A DNA stretch of 64,000 nt from an uncultured Bacteroidota bacterium (lineage in GTDB: Bacteria; Bacteroidota; Bacteroidia; Chitinophagales; Saprospiraceae): assembly GCA_902609095.1 (NCBI GenBank), contig CACLQQ010000001.1:1-64000 (forward strand), in the 5' to 3' direction. The notes under the pieces are model-generated. The model was not told the DNA's origin, did no database searches, and saw only the letters and a list, made by a program, of their open reading frames with translations. Positions within the stretch are counted from its first letter, which is position 1, and each line of letters starts with the position of its first letter. Both the position numbers and the translations under genes were made by a program. This document shows positions 38,943-60,810 of this stretch, one piece after another.

Positions 38943-38963
38943 TATATTTGCAACATTGTTGCA
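38943..38963 (+). promoter_or_regulatory. -7 box TATATTTG (38943-38950) overlapping perfect 7-1-7 palindrome TGCAACA-T-TGTTGCA (38949-38963); candidate Fur-family (Zur) operator
   Basis: Palindrome directly visible; TAnnTTTG match; ends 20 nt before the ATG of the COG0523 gene (38984). Confidence 0.6.
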
Positions 38964-38983: not shown

Positions 38984-40207
38984 ATGAAAGTAAAAAATAA
39001 ACTTCCAGTAACTGTATTAAGTGGATTCCTTGGTGCTGGTAAAACGACCTTACTTAACCATGTTTTACATAACAAAGAAGGTCTCAAAGTAGCCGTCATT
39101 GTAAATGACATGAGTGAAGTAAACGTAGATGCTGAATTGGTTAAAAATGAAAACACGCTTTCTCGAACTGAGGAGAAATTAGTAGAGATGAGTAATGGAT
39201 GCATCTGTTGCACATTGAGAGAGGACCTAATGATCGAAGTAGAACGACTGGCTAAAGAAAATAGATTTGACTATCTCCTTATTGAAAGCACAGGTATCAG
39301 TGAGCCTGTGCCTGTCGCACAGACCTTCACATTTGTTGATGAGAATAATGGTATTGATCTATCCAGGTTTAGTTACGTGGATACGATGGTAACGGTTGTG
39401 GACGCCTTTAACTTTTTTGAAGACTTCGGCAGCCCAGAAACTCTCATGGACCGCAAACTCACAGATATTGATGGAGATAATCGAACGATAGTAGATTTAC
39501 TAACTGATCAAATCGAATTTGCCAATGTCATCTTATTGAACAAAACAGATTTAGTTTCAGAAAAACATCTCGGAATCTTAGAGGCTGGATTAAATAAACT
39601 CAATCCAGGGGCCAAAATCATTAAGTCAAGCTATAGTAGAGTTGATCCCAAAGAAATTATCAATACTGGATTATTCGACTTTGAAGAAGCTGAACAGAGT
39701 GCTGGCTGGATTGAAGAATTAAACAAAGCAGAGCATACTCCAGAAACAGAGGAATACGATATATCATCATTTGTATATAGGACTAAGACACCATTCAACC
39801 CTGAGCGTTTTTGGAATTATATTCAAACTAAGTTCCCTACCAATGTCATGCGAAGCAAGGGTTTATTTTGGCTGGCATCTCGCCCTGATCAAGCAATGAT
39901 ATGGGGTCAGGCTGGTAGCTCACTCAAAGCAGAAAGTGCAGGTGTCTGGTGGAGCGTTATGCCTTATAAAAAAAGAATGCAGTATCAATCCTATATCTAC
40001 AATAGACATATCATTGAAGAAGGTTGGGATGAAGACTTTGGAGATAGAAAGAACGAAATAGTTATTATTGGTCAGGACATGGATGAAAAAAAAATCAGAG
40101 CAGAATTCGATAATTGCTTAATGACGGAGAAAGAATTAGCTGATGGTAAATGGAAGGAAGGTTATGATGATGAATGGCCAGTAGAGAGAGCTTATGCTTT
40201 GAATTAA
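38984..40207 (+). CDS. COG0523/CobW-family GTP-binding metallochaperone
   Basis: '[20 protein letters not shown]' P-loop, '[12 protein letters not shown]' (GCxCC), '[11 protein letters not shown]', 'ILLNKTDLV'. M31 of the supplied ORF is the likely start. Confidence 0.92.
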
Positions 40208-40295: not shown

Positions 40296-40712
40296 ATGAC
40301 TACAATAGAGCTCGAAGAAATAACAGAACTCAGACCACAATTCGTAAAGAGAAATGGTATCCTGCCAGTTGCAGTACAAGAAAACTCTAATGGACAGATC
40401 CTCATACTTGCCTCAGTGAATGAAGAAGCCTTTAATAATACTATCAAACATAAAATTTGCACATTTTACAGTACATCCAGAAACAAGCTATGGATCAAAG
40501 GACAAACATAACGTAATTATCTACAGTTGGATGAGGTACTCATAGATTGTGATCAAGACGCTAAAGTGTATAAGGTTACCCTTAAAAAAGGAGGCGTATG
40601 TCACACCTTCAATCAATATGGAGACGACAGAAAAGCCTGTTTCTACCGTAACGTTGATTTGGACTCTAAAGCTTTGAATTTTTTAGAAAAAGAAACGGCA
40701 TACATTAAATAA
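40296..40712 (+). pseudogene. hisI: phosphoribosyl-AMP cyclohydrolase (HisI-like) with one in-frame TAA
   Basis: 'LRPQFVKRNGILPVAVQENSNGQILILASVNEEAF...FYSTSRNKLWIKGQT*RNYLQLDEVLIDCDQDAKVYKV...GGVCHTFNQYGDDRKACFYR'; both fragments in the same frame. Confidence 0.88.
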
Positions 40713-40776
40713 TCAAGAAAAGAAGGCTATCACCTTTACTGTAATTTATTAGGTCACCTCAGCAGATCATCACCAT

Positions 40777-42260
40777 GACATTACAAGTATATAATACACT
40801 CACCTCTCAGAAAGAAGAATTCAAATATCACTGACAACAGGGTAGGCATGTATGTCTGTGGACCTACCGTCTATGGCGAACCTCATTTAGGTCATGCTCG
40901 ATCAGCTATCACGTTTGATACCGTGTATCAATATCTCAGCTATTTGGGATATAAAGTGCGCTATGTCCGCAATATCACGGATGTAGGTCATCTCGAAGAT
41001 GAAGAAAACGGTACGGGAGAGGACAAAATATTAAAGAAAGCTCGGATCGAGCAACTCGAGTCAATGGAGGTTGCTCAGCATTATACTAATATATATCGCA
41101 GTGCTATGAGAGCATTGAATGTGAAGGAGCCATCAATTGAGCCTACAGCTTCTGGTCATATTCCTGAACAAATCGAGACTATTCAAAAGACTCTTACCAA
41201 TGGTTTAGCTTATGAAGCTAATGGATCAATTTATTTCGATGTCAAGACTTATGAAGAACGATTTGAATATGGCATCTTATCAAACAAAAAGTTAAATGAA
41301 CTACAAGCAGCAAGCCATGATAACTTGGAAGGATTAGAAGAAAAAAGATTCCATGCTGACTTTGCCTTACGGAAAAAGGCTCAACCAGAACATATCATGC
41401 AGTGGAATTAGCCATGGGGCAATGGATTCCCAGGTTGGCATATAGAATGTACTTCTATGAGTACAAAGGACCTCGGAATACCTTTTGACATCCATGGTGG
41501 CGGTATGGACTTAAAGTTTCCGCATCATGAATCCGAGATTTGTCAAAGTATGGCAGCGTATGGCCAAAAACCCATTAACTATTGGTTACATAATAATATG
41601 GTCACCCTAAATGGGCAAAAAATGTCAAAGTTTAAAGGTAATTTCATTACGCTGGAGGAAATGTTCACCGGCAATCATGAACTATTGATACAATCCTATT
41701 CGCCAATGGTGGTGCGGTTTTTCATCCTTCAAGCTCACTATGGAAGCACAATAGATTTCTCAAATGAAAGTCTTCTGGCCGCAGTGAGTGGACTAAAGAA
41801 ACTCGAAAATAGCTTTACAAAGCTTGACTCTATAATATCAGATCCTAATCAAGAGATCGACCAAGACCTCAACGAGGAAATGTCTGTTGCAATTGATAAA
41901 TGTCATGCTGCCATCAATGACGACTTTAATACTGCTAAGCTAATTGCTGCCATGTTTGAATTGAGCAAGATTATTAACAAGCTATCGGATGTTAGGACTA
42001 AGAGTATCATAAATCTTAAGACTCTTGAACGGCTCTCAAGTGACTACAAGACTTTCATGAGAGATATATTAGGATTGACAGATAATTCCGACACATCGGA
42101 CAAAGTATCTGATACAATGGAAATATTAATTGAGCTTAGGCGTCAAGCTAAAGTTGAGAAGAACTATACTTATTCAGACTTGATCAGAGATAAATTAGAA
42201 GAAATTGGCATTCAGCTATATGATGAAAAAGACGGTAGTATCGCTTATACTATTAAATAA
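40777..42260 (+). pseudogene. cysS: cysteinyl-tRNA synthetase with N-terminal frameshift and an in-frame TAG
   Basis: '[17 protein letters not shown]' then shifted frame '[27 protein letters not shown]'; '[24 protein letters not shown]'; '[18 protein letters not shown]'; 'KMSKFKGNF' (KMSKS-like). Confidence 0.9.
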
Positions 42261-42287: not shown

Positions 42288-43316
42288 ATGAAAAAGAAAA
42301 CTACCATCCTCACAGGTTTTTTAGGAGCTGGCAAGACTACATTTCTCAATCATCTAATCACCAACAAAACTGATGTTAAGTATGCCATTATCGAAAATGA
42401 AATTAGAGAACAAAATATTGATAATGATTTAATTATCAGATCATCAGACGATATTGTAGAGCTCAAAAATGGATGCCTTTGTTGTTCGCTGAATGATAGC
42501 CTTTATGAAATATTGAGCGAATTGTATCATCGAAAAGATGACTTTGATGAATTGATAATTGAGGCAACCGGCATTACTGATCCTGCCAGTATTGCTGAAC
42601 ATTTTCTAATTCATCCTGATGTTAAAAAGACGTTTAAACTCGTTAATACTATATGCATCATAGATGCAGAAATTGTAGAAGATTGGCTCGACGAAACAGA
42701 AGAAGCACGAAAGCAAATCGCCTTTTCTGATGTGTTGCTGATTGGCAAAACTGACTTAGTATCCCCCTCATATGTGGATACACTGATAGCCATCTTAAAA
42801 GGTATCAATCCACTTGCTCAGATGTTTATTAAGTCAGATGAGGGAGAATACCCAAAGATTTTCCCTGCTTCTCAAAAGAGCTTATATCTTTCAAATAAAA
42901 CCGTTGAAAGTGAGCATCACCATCACGATGATTTATGTAATCACCATCATGATATTTGTGATCAAGATCACAAATATCATGGATATAAAACTCATAGTCA
43001 TACCGACATAGTAACTTGTTCATTTGTATACGATAAGACATTCGATATGCAAAAGCTCCATTATAGGTTGATGGTCTTACTCAATGTTCAATCAAAAGGA
43101 TTATATCGAATTAAAGATATCGTCTACACCGATAATCCTAATGAAAAATTAGTGGTCCAATCTGTGGGCAAAAGATTAAGCATCCAAGAGATACCAGGGA
43201 CGACAGAAGAATCTAAAACGTCTAAATTCGTTTTCATTGGAAGAAATCTAAAACCAGACGGATTTCTAATTTCATTAAAACAAAGTGTCAACACTGCCGT
43301 TACTGTAGAAATTTGA
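42288..43316 (+). CDS. COG0523-family GTPase with His-rich metal-binding insert
   Basis: '[17 protein letters not shown]', 'KNGCLCCSLND', 'IIEATGITDPA', 'HHHHDDLCNHHHDICDQDHKYHGYKTHSH'. Confidence 0.92.
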   Translation: MKKKTTILTGFLGAGKTTFLNHLITNKTDVKYAIIENEIREQNIDNDLIIRSSDDIVELKNGCLCCSLNDSLYEILSELYHRKDDFDELIIEATGITDPASIAEHFLIHPDVKKTFKLVNTICIIDAEIVEDWLDETEEARKQIAFSDVLLIGKTDLVSPSYVDTLIAILKGINPLAQMFIKSDEGEYPKIFPASQKSLYLSNKTVESEHHHHDDLCNHHHDICDQDHKYHGYKTHSHTDIVTCSFVYDKTFDMQKLHYRLMVLLNVQSKGLYRIKDIVYTDNPNEKLVVQSVGKRLSIQEIPGTTEESKTSKFVFIGRNLKPDGFLISLKQSVNTAVTVEI

Positions 43317-54195: not shown

Positions 54196-57100
54196 CTAAC
54201 AGACAGGCACAAAGATGAGAGTAACTAAGGTGCCAAATAGTAGATCAAACATAATTGCCGCAGCCAATGGCTCCCACATGATTCCTCCTTCAATGTAAAG
54301 TGGTATCATACTAAGCACTGTGGTGAAAGTAGTCAACATGTTCGGTCTAATACGCTGCAGACAAGCCTCCCTAATAACATCGATGAGGGCTAGTCCGTTA
54401 TCAGACTCTACCTTAATCTTATTGATCAGAACGATCGCATTATTAATGATGATACCTGCAAGTGAAATTATCCCAAGAAACGCAAAGAACCAGAAATAGG
54501 ACTGCAAGATGAGCAATCCAAAAATGACCCCTAAAATACCCAAAGGAATGGTCATCAGAACCATGAAAGTCTTACGAAAAGAATTAAACTGAATAATTAG
54601 CAGCATGATTATAATGAAGAAAGAAAATGGGAGCCATTCTGCTACAGGACCCATTGATTCGGCAGAGTTCTTGGCATCCCCACCTAATTCATATCGATAA
54701 ACATTGGGCCAAACTTCTTTCATCTGTTGATCCAACCATGGTGTAACCTCTGCTATAATAGCACAAGCGTTACCGTCTTCACTGAGCTGAGAAGATACAT
54801 TTACATTGCGTCGTAGATCCTTGCTGATAACATTAGCGAACTGCCAATCAACCTCGATATCTGACACTTGTGATAAAGGAATATTATGGCCAGTTTGCTG
54901 TAAATAGATATTGATACTCTCGAGCTTTTCTACCGTGACCCTATAATGGTTAAAGTCTCTCATGATAATACTAATATTATCCTTACCCTCTCTTTACTTA
55001 CCCACATCAAATCCAGTCAGTGCTGTCCTAATCGAGACAGCAATGTCTTGGTTAGATAGACCTACATTTTGAGTTTTAAAGGGGGTTTATAACTATGACT
55101 ATTTTTTTGTCTTTGGGCCCCAATCATCTTTGACATTCTTAGAGCCAAGCTGAGCCTTGAGTTTCATTCTCACAGACTCTACTATAGTGGAGAGTTGGTC
55201 GGCGTTCTTTCCTGATATCATTATCTCAATCGGTGTTCCCTCACCAACTGCACCCAATCTCTTGACCTTCACATCTGCTGTTGGGAAAGTTGCAAAAGCG
55301 AAACTGTCCAGTTTAGCTATTACATAACCGTTGTCATCTCCATAAGATGTATTCACGAGCATGTGAGCATAGTTTGCATTGGCTTCATCAGGATTATATC
55401 TTAAATCATAGGATTCAGGCCCCTTACCGATAAATGCGAACCAATCTATAACTCCCCGAGCTCTGGTATCACTCAATTGGTGATTTTCTTCCATGAAAAC
55501 CTCAGTCCTTTCAACCACCTCGGAGATGGTTTCTGATCTACTCCCCTAAGGAAGTTTGATGTCGGCAGTAATCAAGTTTCGCTCAGAGTCTGGAAAAAAC
55601 AGGAATGGGATCTTTCCAAACAAAATAAGTGAACCAAGAAAGACACCCATGACCGCAACTATAGAAATCACTTTAAAATCTAATGCTACATTGATCAATT
55701 TATTGTAATAGACCTTAAGTGACTCTATTACTCCATCAACAAGACTCTTACTATTATCATTTGGAGATAAAGCCTTTAGAAAATAATAGCTGAGCATGGT
55801 AATCATTGTCATAGATAAAAACCAAGAACTAACCAATTCTATGGTAATCACTACGAATAAAGGACCTACAATATCACCCATAGTCCCTTCAGCCAAGTAG
55901 AAAGACATAAAGACTACAGAGGTAGTCAAAGTTGAGATTAAAAGAGGAACAATCAATTCATCACAGGCCTCCTTGATAGCATTCCATTTATCAGCTCCAT
56001 TCTCGAGTTTAACCAAAACGGTCTCTGCTACCACTACCCCATTATCAACCATCAAGCCCAGCGCCATAATCAGTGCAGCTAATGAAACTTGATTAATACC
56101 TTGATCAAAGAACCCCATAAATAAAACGGTGGCTAAAATCACCCTGGGAACTAAGGAGGCAATGATAAATCCAGTCCTAAAGCCTAAGAAAATAAGCATA
56201 ACCACCAAAACCAAAAGAACTTTCTGAATAAGATTACATACAAAATTTCCTGCCTTCGAATCAATATAATAGTCTAATAATGATAGTTGTCTTAACTCAA
56301 GTCCAGCTGGTAGAGATTGGTTAAACTCAAGTAACATATCATCGATCTGTTTGCCTAACTGGACCACGTTAGCTCCATCCTTCAGAGCGATTGATAAGGC
56401 TAAGGCTCTCTTCCCATCAACTTTTATGATTTGGGTTGCAGGGTCACTATATCCTCTATGGATACTAGCAATATCCTGTAGATACAAAGACTGGCCATTT
56501 ACATTACGAATGATTGTATTCTTGATATCATTGACATTGTCAAAATTTCCTGTTGGCTCAATGATAATGCGCTCACCACCAATGTTCAATTACCCTCCAG
56601 AGTATAATATGTTAGTTCCGGCCAGAATAGAATGGATCTGAGAAGCGGTTATCTCAAGACTCGCCATCTTAGCATTATCGAATTCAAAGAATATTTGTCC
56701 TATCTGATCACCTCCAATCTCAACCTTGGAAGCTTCCTCTAAAGCAATAATCTAATCCCTTATCTCATCGGCAACTTTTTTAAGCTCAGCATACTGAAAC
56801 TCCAAATCTCCACGGTCATCATTATCTGAGATCAGACCTAACATGATACCATAAATGACACCAACGTCATCGTCCTTAAGGTTATAGTCCACTCCATCAG
56901 GAAACTCGATAGTATTAAGCTTCCTCCTTATCCTATCCCAGATTGCCTGTAATTCGGAAGCGGCTACTTCATTTTTTAAACTTATAGTCGCAACTGATAA
57001 GCCTGATCTGGATTGAGTAGTGATTTCTTAGAGTTCGGGTATTTCTTGAATTTTTTCTTCTACTTTTCGACTGACTAAATTCTCGAAACGCTCTGGACTT

Positions 57101-57261
57101 GCACCAGATAATTTGGATACTACAGAGTCTACTCTTTCTGTATATGGAGGCATACTATTCTGTGGCAAACTGAAATATGTCGTTAACCCTAATGCTGCAA
57201 AAAGAACGAATATAGATATAGCTATTCGGCTTCTTTTGATAGTAAATTCAGTAAGATTCAT
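54196..57261 (-). pseudogene. RND efflux transporter, single frame with at least six in-frame stops
   Basis: Fragments starting at 57261, 56589, 55518 and 54963 share one reading frame and tile an AcrB-type protein ('MNLTEFTIKRSRIAISIFVLFAALGLTTYFSLPQ', 'ALIMALGLMVDNGVVVAETV', 'FAFLGIISLAGIIINNAIVLINKI'). Confidence 0.9.
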
Positions 57262-57438
57262 ATGTTACTACTTTTCGTTCTATAACATTACAGACATACC
57301 ATCCTGGAGTACATTCAAGCCTGCACTTGCCACAAGCTCTCCTTCCTTAACTCCTTCCAACACCTCAAAACCATAATCATTTAATAACCCCAAACTGATA
57401 GGCCTTTTATTTCAAACATAACTGTCATTCTCTTTGTT

Positions 57439-58439
57439 TCACACCTGTCCATAGATCCATTGTCCATCTTTACCAACTGCACTGGGTGGTCCTATTTTAG
57501 CTTTTTCACTGTGTCGTTTATCATCATACTGAAATGTAGCTGTAGCAGGCATCCCTGGACGAATTCGTTCATCATCATCTGTCAATCTAATAGTTACAGG
57601 ATATGTACTTACAGCGGAGCTGTAATCAATCTCATGAACTCTGCCATGAAGAATCGCTCCAGCTAATGAGTTAAAGACAACCGTTACTTCCTGATTGTAC
57701 TGGATCGAAGCAATCGCCCCTTCTGGCACACCTGCCTCTATGTCTGGATTGACAATAGAGTTAATCTCTATAATCTGACTTCCCTGATTTACAACTTCAT
57801 TTGGCTCTACATTAATGGCGGTTATCACCCCATTAAATGGAGCAGTCATCTCAATATAGGCGACTTGATTTGATGCGTTTGGTGATTGTTTTCAGAAGAC
57901 TCACTTGAGGCCTTAGCCGCTTCTATTTGACTAAGCGATGCTTTATAACTCTCATCTCCACTGAGATATGCAGATTTAGCTTGTTCGAAATCACTTAAAG
58001 AAATACTATTAGTCTCATATAATTTTTCATATCGTTGATAATTGGACTCTGCGTTTATCAGATTTGCTTTTGCACTCTCCAGTTGGGCTCGAGCATTCTC
58101 AATTTGAGCGTTGGAACTATGGATACTGGCTAATGACAAGTCGTAATTCACTTGATAGTCAGTATCATCCAGCTTAGCCAGCACGTGATCTCTCCTTACT
58201 AAATCACCAACTTTTACATAGATATTGTCGAAAATCCCACTCACTTTGAAGCTTAGGTGGGCCATACGCTGTGCCTTGGCAAGACCAGTATAGCTGTGCT
58301 CTCCAATAATATTGGTACTTCCCACAGTTACATACTTAACTGGACGAAGTACCTGTGTGGCTTCTTGTTCTTCTCCTCTACCCCCACATGCACAGCACAA
58401 TAAAAGCTCGAAAGGAAACACTCGCATTAATTTATTCAT
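57439..58439 (-). pseudogene. HlyD/MFP efflux adaptor, frameshifted
   Basis: 'HLSFKVSGIFDNIYVKVGDLVRRDHVLAKLDDTDYQ' continues after a frameshift near 57850-57880 as 'NQVAYIEMTAPFNGVITAINVEPNEVVNQG'. Confidence 0.88.
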
Positions 58440-60810
58440 TCTTCTTTATTTCGGTGATGAAATCAAAATAGTCGATGATAAACTGCTGTCTTTCTTCCTC
58501 ATCAGTCAGCAGATAAATATTATTGGTCAATTTTTCAATGGTTAAGGCATCTATGATGAATTGATATCTCGAGGAAACCTCACCAAATTGAGCGGATAAT
58601 GCATTATTCTGTGCATCCAACAGTGTTACAATATTACTCACCCCTTCCTTATATAGATCTTGAACAATCTTCAGATATTGATTACTCGAAGTTTCGGCTT
58701 GTTGACTGAATTTAATCTCATTAAATGAGTTAGCTAAGTTCTCTAAGGATATTCTGATATTAAAAGCAAAGGTTAATTCTAAATCTGATTTGCTCAACTG
58801 TAATTGATCAATAAGAATCTCATCCTTCTGAATTTTCTTATTTCTTAATTGACCTTGAAATATAGGAAGCGATGCATTGAGAGCTATATTCCATGTAAGA
58901 ATTAAGGGATCTACTCCAAACTCGCCCAATTGATCATCTGAAATTCTCGTACCATATCTACCAAATACCTTGTCCAAATTGCCCTTTTATACCAGCTGTG
59001 GTTGATAGAGACTGCGTTTATGTGAGAGAGGTGAGCGTTTTTGAGCCTCAATAACATAACCAAGTTATTTTAGCTCTGGTGCTCTTTCATAAGTCCTATG
59101 AATTAAAAAATTGGCAAACTCTAAGAAATCATAGTGATTGGTAATGCCACCTCGAAGCTTATTTTGTGATAGAAACAAAATATCATTAAAGTCCTCGATA
59201 TCCTATAGAATTAGATGACGATCGAGAGAAATATTTAGTAAGGTATTAAAAGATATCATCCCCTGTTCTAATACCGTAGCTGCATCATCCAAAGAGATTT
59301 TATTGAGTGCTAACTGAGACTCAAATCCATAGACATCCGCCAAGCTAACAGTTCCTATGTTTGCTTTGGTTTTGACAATGTTCAAATTCTTCGAGGTAGT
59401 TTGAACATTATTATTTTGAATATTGAGATTCGCGTGAGTCTGCAGTAATCTTAGGTAAGCCGTACAAACATCCAACACTAAATCCAATTGGAGGGATAAT
59501 AACCCTTGTTTTTCAGATTCCAATAGCATCTTTTGAATCGATACGTTCGCATTAGCAGGTTCCGAGTAGAGCACTTGATTCACTTGGAAATTCCCACTCC
59601 ATTCTGTCTGTGGTGTAAGCTGATTGGCCGCAGCCAATAACTGTGCGGACCTACTGTCTAAATTCAATACACTTGAACTGAGTTCACCGTTGGGTCTAAG
59701 GTTTGATTGTGCTATCCTTATTTCCGTATTCTGAATCTCTCCGTTCTTCTTTTCTGTCAGGTAATTCAAGTTGTTTTCAAGTGCATGGGCAACTGCTGAT
59801 TCAATCGTATAATGCACATTTCTTTTTGGGATGATAGCAATCATACTTGCCTTACTTAATACCCCGAAAGAAGGATAAATATCAATCTGCTCCATAGTTG
59901 CAGCGTTAATCACAAAGTCCTCTTTAAGACCACTGATCTGTACTGGAAAGTCTTTTGGGTTTTGACCTTCCAAAATCTTCATCACATTCAGCGCAATCCT
60001 TCGGGCGTATACGCTGATATACTCTGAGGGTGAAATAGATACTAATACGCCTTTCTCGACATCAGTTCGACCAATTAGACTCAACGAGAGAAGTCCCAAT
60101 TCATTGATCAAACTAATTAATAAGTCATTATATGACTCATTAGCATATAGATTCGGAAGAAAGTAAATCGTATCGACATCATAATCTAACTACTCTACGT
60201 CATACGCTGGACCGGATGAAATAGACACAAATTGTGTATTAAAATCTATAGAACAAGATGCAATTAATGGTTCTATCCTTGATTTGAGCAACGGATCAGC
60301 AAATACACCCAACTTCTTGAACGGGATAAATCACCTGAAAAACCTCTAAGTCTCGTTCTACATTTAACGGACTCACTACGTAATTGTAGTTATTTATACC
60401 TGTTGTAGTCCTCTCCGATCGTTCCAAAGATATTCCTGCTAAGGAAGGAACAGGGTTATCATCCATCTGTGATAAGACATCCGAGGCTCCAAAACCTAAA
60501 GTTATAATGACCTCAGAACCGTCAATCATCGCATTACTAAAAATCGTGCTAAGCTCGCCGTCTTGCTCGTTAGAACTCTATAGTTAATGACATACTGATT
60601 CTCGAGTAAGGCATTGATCTCGCTCTGGATCAATTGTAAAAATAAAGAAGTCTCTCTATCTACATAATGTACTATTGTGATATCCGCTTGTTTATCCTGC
60701 CCTGACATTCCAACTGCTAAGCAGAACAGACTAATAAAGACAAGAATCATCTTGATACTAACATTATTGGGTATTAACAGCGTCACTCTTTGGAGTATAG
60801 GACTATACAA
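58432..60810 (-). pseudogene. ABC_sub_bind (PF04392-like) domain fused to TolC-like outer membrane channel, decayed
   Basis: N-part 'ITIVHYVDRETSLFLQLIQSEINALLENQYVINYRVL', 'GRTDVEKGVLVSISPSEYISVYARRIALNVMKILEGQNPKDFPV'; then TolC part 'ESAVAHALENNLNYLTEKKNGEIQNTEIRIAQSNLRPNGELSSS...'; several stops/frame changes. Confidence 0.75.

Follow-up and report, generated by a model that had tools for sequence, protein, structure and literature searches.

Background

The described systems closest to the one analysed here are the Zur box of Desulfovibrio, the COG0523 gene clusters of proteobacteria, and the Zur protein of E. coli. In two Desulfovibrio species the predicted Zur box is ATGCAACNNNGTTGCAT (Rodionov et al. 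2004, PMC545781) and precedes znuABC-zur, whereas the box examined here, which belongs to another phylum, precedes COG0523, DUF1826, MerC-like, TonB receptor and lipoprotein genes and is partly fused to a -7 promoter element. The two boxes have in common the core TGCAAC-N3-GTTGCA and a location upstream of zinc genes together with the gene of a Fur-family regulator. Haas et al. (2009) described clusters, predicted to be Zur-regulated, in which COG0523 genes stand with DUF1826 and with paralogues of HisI and CysRS (PMC2770081), and the same gene content is found here, although their clusters are from beta- and gamma-proteobacteria and differ from ours in operator and regulator clade. E. coli Zur (structure 4mtd) resembles the regulator proposed below in its structural Cys4 site, in three regulatory ligands and in having a palindromic operator, while the two proteins are 27% identical, the operator sequences differ, and the comparison of the TxYR helix region gives DR[VI]TLYRTL instead of KPPTVYRAL.

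The COG0523 survey (PMC2770081) does not name Bacteroidetes, nor does a Zur review searched for that term (PMC6103462), and the literature searches, which did not extend to RegPrecise or most subscription journals, returned no published Zur box for Bacteroidota; zinc regulation in Bacteroidota appears to be little described. Judged from sequence comparison, the present locus is very probably the same kind of system as the known Zur boxes, in a Bacteroidota host for which the literature searched gave no earlier box.

Results and Discussion

The palindrome and the predicted window operon

The window, that is, the whole stretch of 64,000 nucleotides that was analysed, was taken from an assembly of 2.76 Mb in 144 contigs, which is 58.7% complete. 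The features around the palindrome are as follows:

38943..38950, + strand: -7 promoter element TATATTTG (TAnnTTTG), matching the consensus and fused to the operator
38949..38963, no strand: predicted Zur operator TGCAACATTGTTGCA (TGCAACA-T-TGTTGCA; core TGCAAC-N3-GTTGCA), from sequence and comparative counts
38984..40207, + strand: COG0523 GTPase, putative zinc metallochaperone, 407 aa, cobW and CobW_C
40296..40712, + strand: hisI-like (phosphoribosyl-AMP cyclohydrolase), in-frame TAA at 40509-40511
40775..42260, + strand: cysS-like (cysteinyl-tRNA synthetase paralogue), frameshift near the start and in-frame TAG at 41409-41411
42288..43316, + strand: second COG0523 GTPase, 342 aa, with a His-rich stretch

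The initial annotation had described a 7-1-7 palindrome that overlaps a -7 box and ends 20 nt before the ATG, and all of this can be read directly in the sequence: the last two bases (TG) of TATATTTG are also the first bases of the palindrome, and the start codon of the 407-aa COG0523 protein, an in-frame ATG at 38984, follows the palindrome after another 20 nt. The exact TGCAACANTGTTGCA is present as a single copy both in the window and in the whole assembly. Palindromicity by itself was rejected as evidence, because a first-order Markov model predicts 5.2 +/- 2.1 perfect 7-1-7 palindromes for the window, and the 7 that it contains are at the level of chance. What exceeds chance here is the sequence together with its placement, not the bare palindrome.

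The four downstream genes would form one transcript. Elsewhere, the order DUF1826-hisI-COG0523-cysS is found at locus L238 and parts of it at L204, L242 and L244, and the window operon is therefore regarded as a recurrent cassette. A second cysS is found in the genome as a 506-aa open frame on contig C16. In the present assembly stops and a frameshift break hisI and cysS (40296-42260), and at 54196-60111 of the window the genes of an RND pump, of its adaptor and of a TolC-like protein are each split as well. Such breaks may reflect either true gene decay or errors of sequence or assembly.

Recurrence of the motif in Saprospiraceae and in the own genome

Random occurrence of the motif, which would have spoken against its being an operator, was not what the counts gave. 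The exact 15-mer was found at 118 sites in 63 of 150 Saprospiraceae genomes in comparison to a single site for the reversed control, which is also a palindrome. All 80 distinct exact sites that were read, nearly all of them from these 150 genomes and a few from the wider order, were intergenic. When the neighbouring genes were grouped, with names assigned by eye from the sequences and the own-genome members scanned with Pfam, the largest groups were lipoproteins of the EE..HQFFF type (21), MerC-like proteins (16), TonB receptors (13) and His-rich lipoproteins (7), followed by DUF1826 (5), COG0523 (5 site-gene pairs from 4 genomes) and others. The motif thus recurs before genes of zinc-uptake and zinc-sparing type in the same genome as well as in related ones.

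With at most one mismatch, TGCAACNNNGTTGCA matched six sites in the own genome, five of which lie just upstream of genes. One of the five is that of the window operon, and the remaining four are:

C27: upstream of a DUF1826 gene
C126: upstream of a MerC-family gene, followed by a COG0523 gene
C12: upstream of a truncated MerC-like gene, followed by an ABC ATPase
C56 (one mismatch): upstream of a Fur-family (zur) gene, followed by a TonB receptor

The Pfam scan of these neighbours confirmed DUF1826, MerC, FUR, cobW and TonB plug domains. The sixth match (C80:1636, one mismatch) lies inside a SusC-like coding sequence; it is probably due to chance and was set aside. Two weaker matches, at C56:4188 and 4216, stand as a pair in front of the gene of an EE..HQFFF lipoprotein, whose family is the most frequent neighbour among relatives. 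Weak matches alone mean little, since at two mismatches the own genome yields 62 matches and the control already 30. None of the near-matches in the own genome is fused to a -7 box.

Footprinting across Bacteroidota

Conservation upstream of orthologues was assessed at 55 loci that encode a relative of the COG0523 protein, fetched from named genomes of Winogradskyella, Allomuricauda, Aquimarina, Tenacibaculum, Lewinella, Hymenobacter and other genera, of which 53 were scored. TGCAACNNNGTTGCA with at most two mismatches occurred within 300 nt upstream in 28 of the 53 loci, 18 times exactly, in comparison to 1 of 53 for the reversed pattern and none for coding sequence, so that the conservation on which the annotation depended was borne out. 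At some of the remaining loci the site is located farther up, before DUF1826 or hisI of the same apparent operon. The two same-genus genomes (G001 and G002) have no orthologue of the COG0523 gene and thus offered no same-genus footprint.

The footprints also refined the motif. Position 7 of the 28 orthologue sites was T in 18, A in 6, C in 2 and G in 2, and since it is not conserved, the core is TGCAAC-N3-GTTGCA in a 6-3-6 arrangement with A/T flanks; the dyad of the annotated 7-1-7 geometry was confirmed, while its seventh position proved over-specified. At three loci both arms carried matched changes (CGCAAC...GTTGCG), as expected for dimer binding. Strict TGCAACANTGTTGCA was rejected as a phylum-wide box for being too strict, with matches in 12 of 297 phylum genomes. 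Relaxed TGCAACNNNGTTGCA matched 68 of 294 phylum genomes in comparison to about 25 with the reversed control, for which genomes were counted by eye. The phylum-wide breadth rests mainly on the footprinting, because the exact 15-mer is rare and the relaxed control is high. Outside the phylum, TGCAATCCTGTTGCA was noticed on a Variovorax contig (L271:3475-3489), starting 33 nt upstream of a 52%-identical COG0523 relative, which may represent transfer of gene and operator or chance.

Promoter geometry

The register between operator and promoter was scored on 78 non-redundant oriented sites. In 21 of the 78, TAnnTTTG started exactly 6 nt ahead of the palindrome, where composition predicts 1.3 such cases (Poisson P 2e-18). 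In 20 it began 21-26 nt downstream of the first base of the palindrome, and in 18 this distance was 32-33 nt, with other offsets nearly empty. The window site belongs to the fused class; the overlap emphasised in the initial annotation is accordingly real and recurrent, while being one of three preferred placements and not the sole layout. The 32-33 class includes several sites with an additional, degenerate copy that is fused to the -7 box, and tandem exact sites are spaced 37-39 bp.

In Flavobacterium psychrophilum the -7 box lies at -12 to -5 (PMC9723704), which places the predicted transcription start of the window operon at about 38955 and the operator over approximately -6 to +9. As for the primary sigma-factor promoter of Bacteroidota, the TAnnTTTG -7 box is present as TATATTTG in a recurrent register, and no TTTG near -33 was found 15-25 nt upstream of it, the best match being TTTC at 23 nt. 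This poor -33 does not exclude a promoter, because the -33 motif was likewise not identified in Flavobacterium johnsoniae data (PMC7366714). The palindrome is a dyad-symmetric site of Fur-family length inside a promoter.

The candidate Zur-like regulator

The regulatory zinc ligands of E. coli Zur are H77, C88, H96 and E111. The candidate regulator in the own genome is:

C56:1358-1774: Zur-like Fur-family protein, 139 aa, PF01475, with a motif near-match upstream of its own gene

Its best match among solved structures was E. coli Zur 4mtd (E 1.5e-6). Across E. coli Zur and 12 family members, seven zinc-ligand positions do not vary, namely the Cys4 structural site C99, C102, C133 and C136, and the conserved regulatory positions H67, C81 and H96; the counterpart of E111 is uncertain, with Cys107 nearby. 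A Zur homologue was found in 62 of the 63 motif-bearing Saprospiraceae genomes versus 50 of the 87 motif-less ones (Fisher P 6e-10, in a test that ignores phylogeny), and the motif is thus present in genomes that encode Zur. For the 50 genomes with a homologue and without an exact site, the 15-mer is probably too strict. Zur-like genes were also found beside the site, in the order site-zur-COG0523 at L243 and divergently at L249, L261 and L201. The Zur-like proteins at these four loci have just 26-28% identity to the C56 protein, and this low identity suggests a second Zur clade which uses the same box. Together with L267, whose Zur-like gene likewise adjoins the box and a COG0523 gene, the range is 26-30%.

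Proposed regulation and alternative explanations

Taken together, the comparisons make it highly probable that the palindrome serves as a Zur operator and is joined to the -7 box of a zinc-starvation operon, COG0523-hisI-cysS-COG0523. The earlier assignment to Zur is supported by the co-occurrence of the Zur-type protein and by the zinc-type downstream genes; we infer the binding of Zur, its dependence on zinc and the direction of regulation. With ample zinc, the metal-loaded dimer of Zur, in all likelihood the 139-aa Fur-family protein (C56:1358-1774), would occupy approximately -6 to +9 and block RNA polymerase. When zinc is scarce, Zur would leave and the GTPase metallochaperones and spare zinc enzymes would be made.

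The genome has three Fur-family matches (C56:1358-1774, C15:7943-8296 and C2:10136-10297) and Fur-family operators have a common dyad geometry, so that a Fur- or PerR-like paralogue, encoded at C15 or C2, might bind the site in response to iron or peroxide rather than zinc. We regard this as unlikely, because the site precedes genes of zinc-starvation type, the presence of the motif goes along with that of the C56 protein, a near-match stands upstream of the C56 gene, and Zur-like genes adjoin the site in several genomes. That last linkage also argues against an unrelated metal-responsive repressor that acts as a dimer, such as an ArsR- or MerR-type protein, which the MerC-like proteins among the commonest neighbours might bring to mind; since no such repressor stood beside the sites that were read, and the box predicted for Desulfovibrio Zur has this core too (PMC545781), such a binder seems very improbable. 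Least credible of all is a chance palindrome, or a hairpin in the transcript in place of a protein site. The chance-level frequency of 7-1-7 palindromes in the window (7 vs 5.2) is what such a reading has in its favour, and it is contradicted by the 118 exact sites against 1 control, by conservation before orthologues and by the fixed -7 register. In addition, the RNA would carry one arm only, because the predicted transcript starts inside the palindrome.

Implications of the proposed Zur box and its neighbours

For the Zur operator favoured here, a wider role is rather more probable than its opposite: in much of Bacteroidota one box, TGCAAC-N3-GTTGCA, common to two Zur clades and Desulfovibrio, may be built into a fixed-register composite, TAnnTTTGCAAC-N3-GTTGCA, frequently accompanied by a second operator 37-39 bp upstream, and may control zinc-uptake genes that are for the most part uncharacterised (MerC-like proteins, EE..HQFFF lipoproteins, His-rich lipoproteins and TonB receptors). 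Such a searchable box would define zinc regulons throughout a large phylum and would point to uncharacterised zinc-import proteins, and the fused -7 box and operator would constitute a simple repression geometry that can be tested.

Among the neighbours of the box, lipoproteins with an acidic N-terminus and an E..EHQFFF motif were observed at L031, L035, L044, L140, L158, L209:4260-5200 and others, and the lipoprotein and the TonB receptor, whose gene comes after that of the lipoprotein at several loci, are a candidate zinc-uptake pair. MerC-like small membrane proteins are often located 3' of the box (L034, L135, L148, L152, L157 and others, and C126 and C12 in the own genome). A LolD-type ABC ATPase is the next gene after the MerC-like one in two cases (C12 and L034), and the two proteins are a candidate zinc-transport module. 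Finally, genes resembling folE (GTP cyclohydrolase-like), identified by eye only, are located near the box in two genomes (L040:1501 and L166:2501), which recalls the Zur-controlled FolE2 that exists in other systems.
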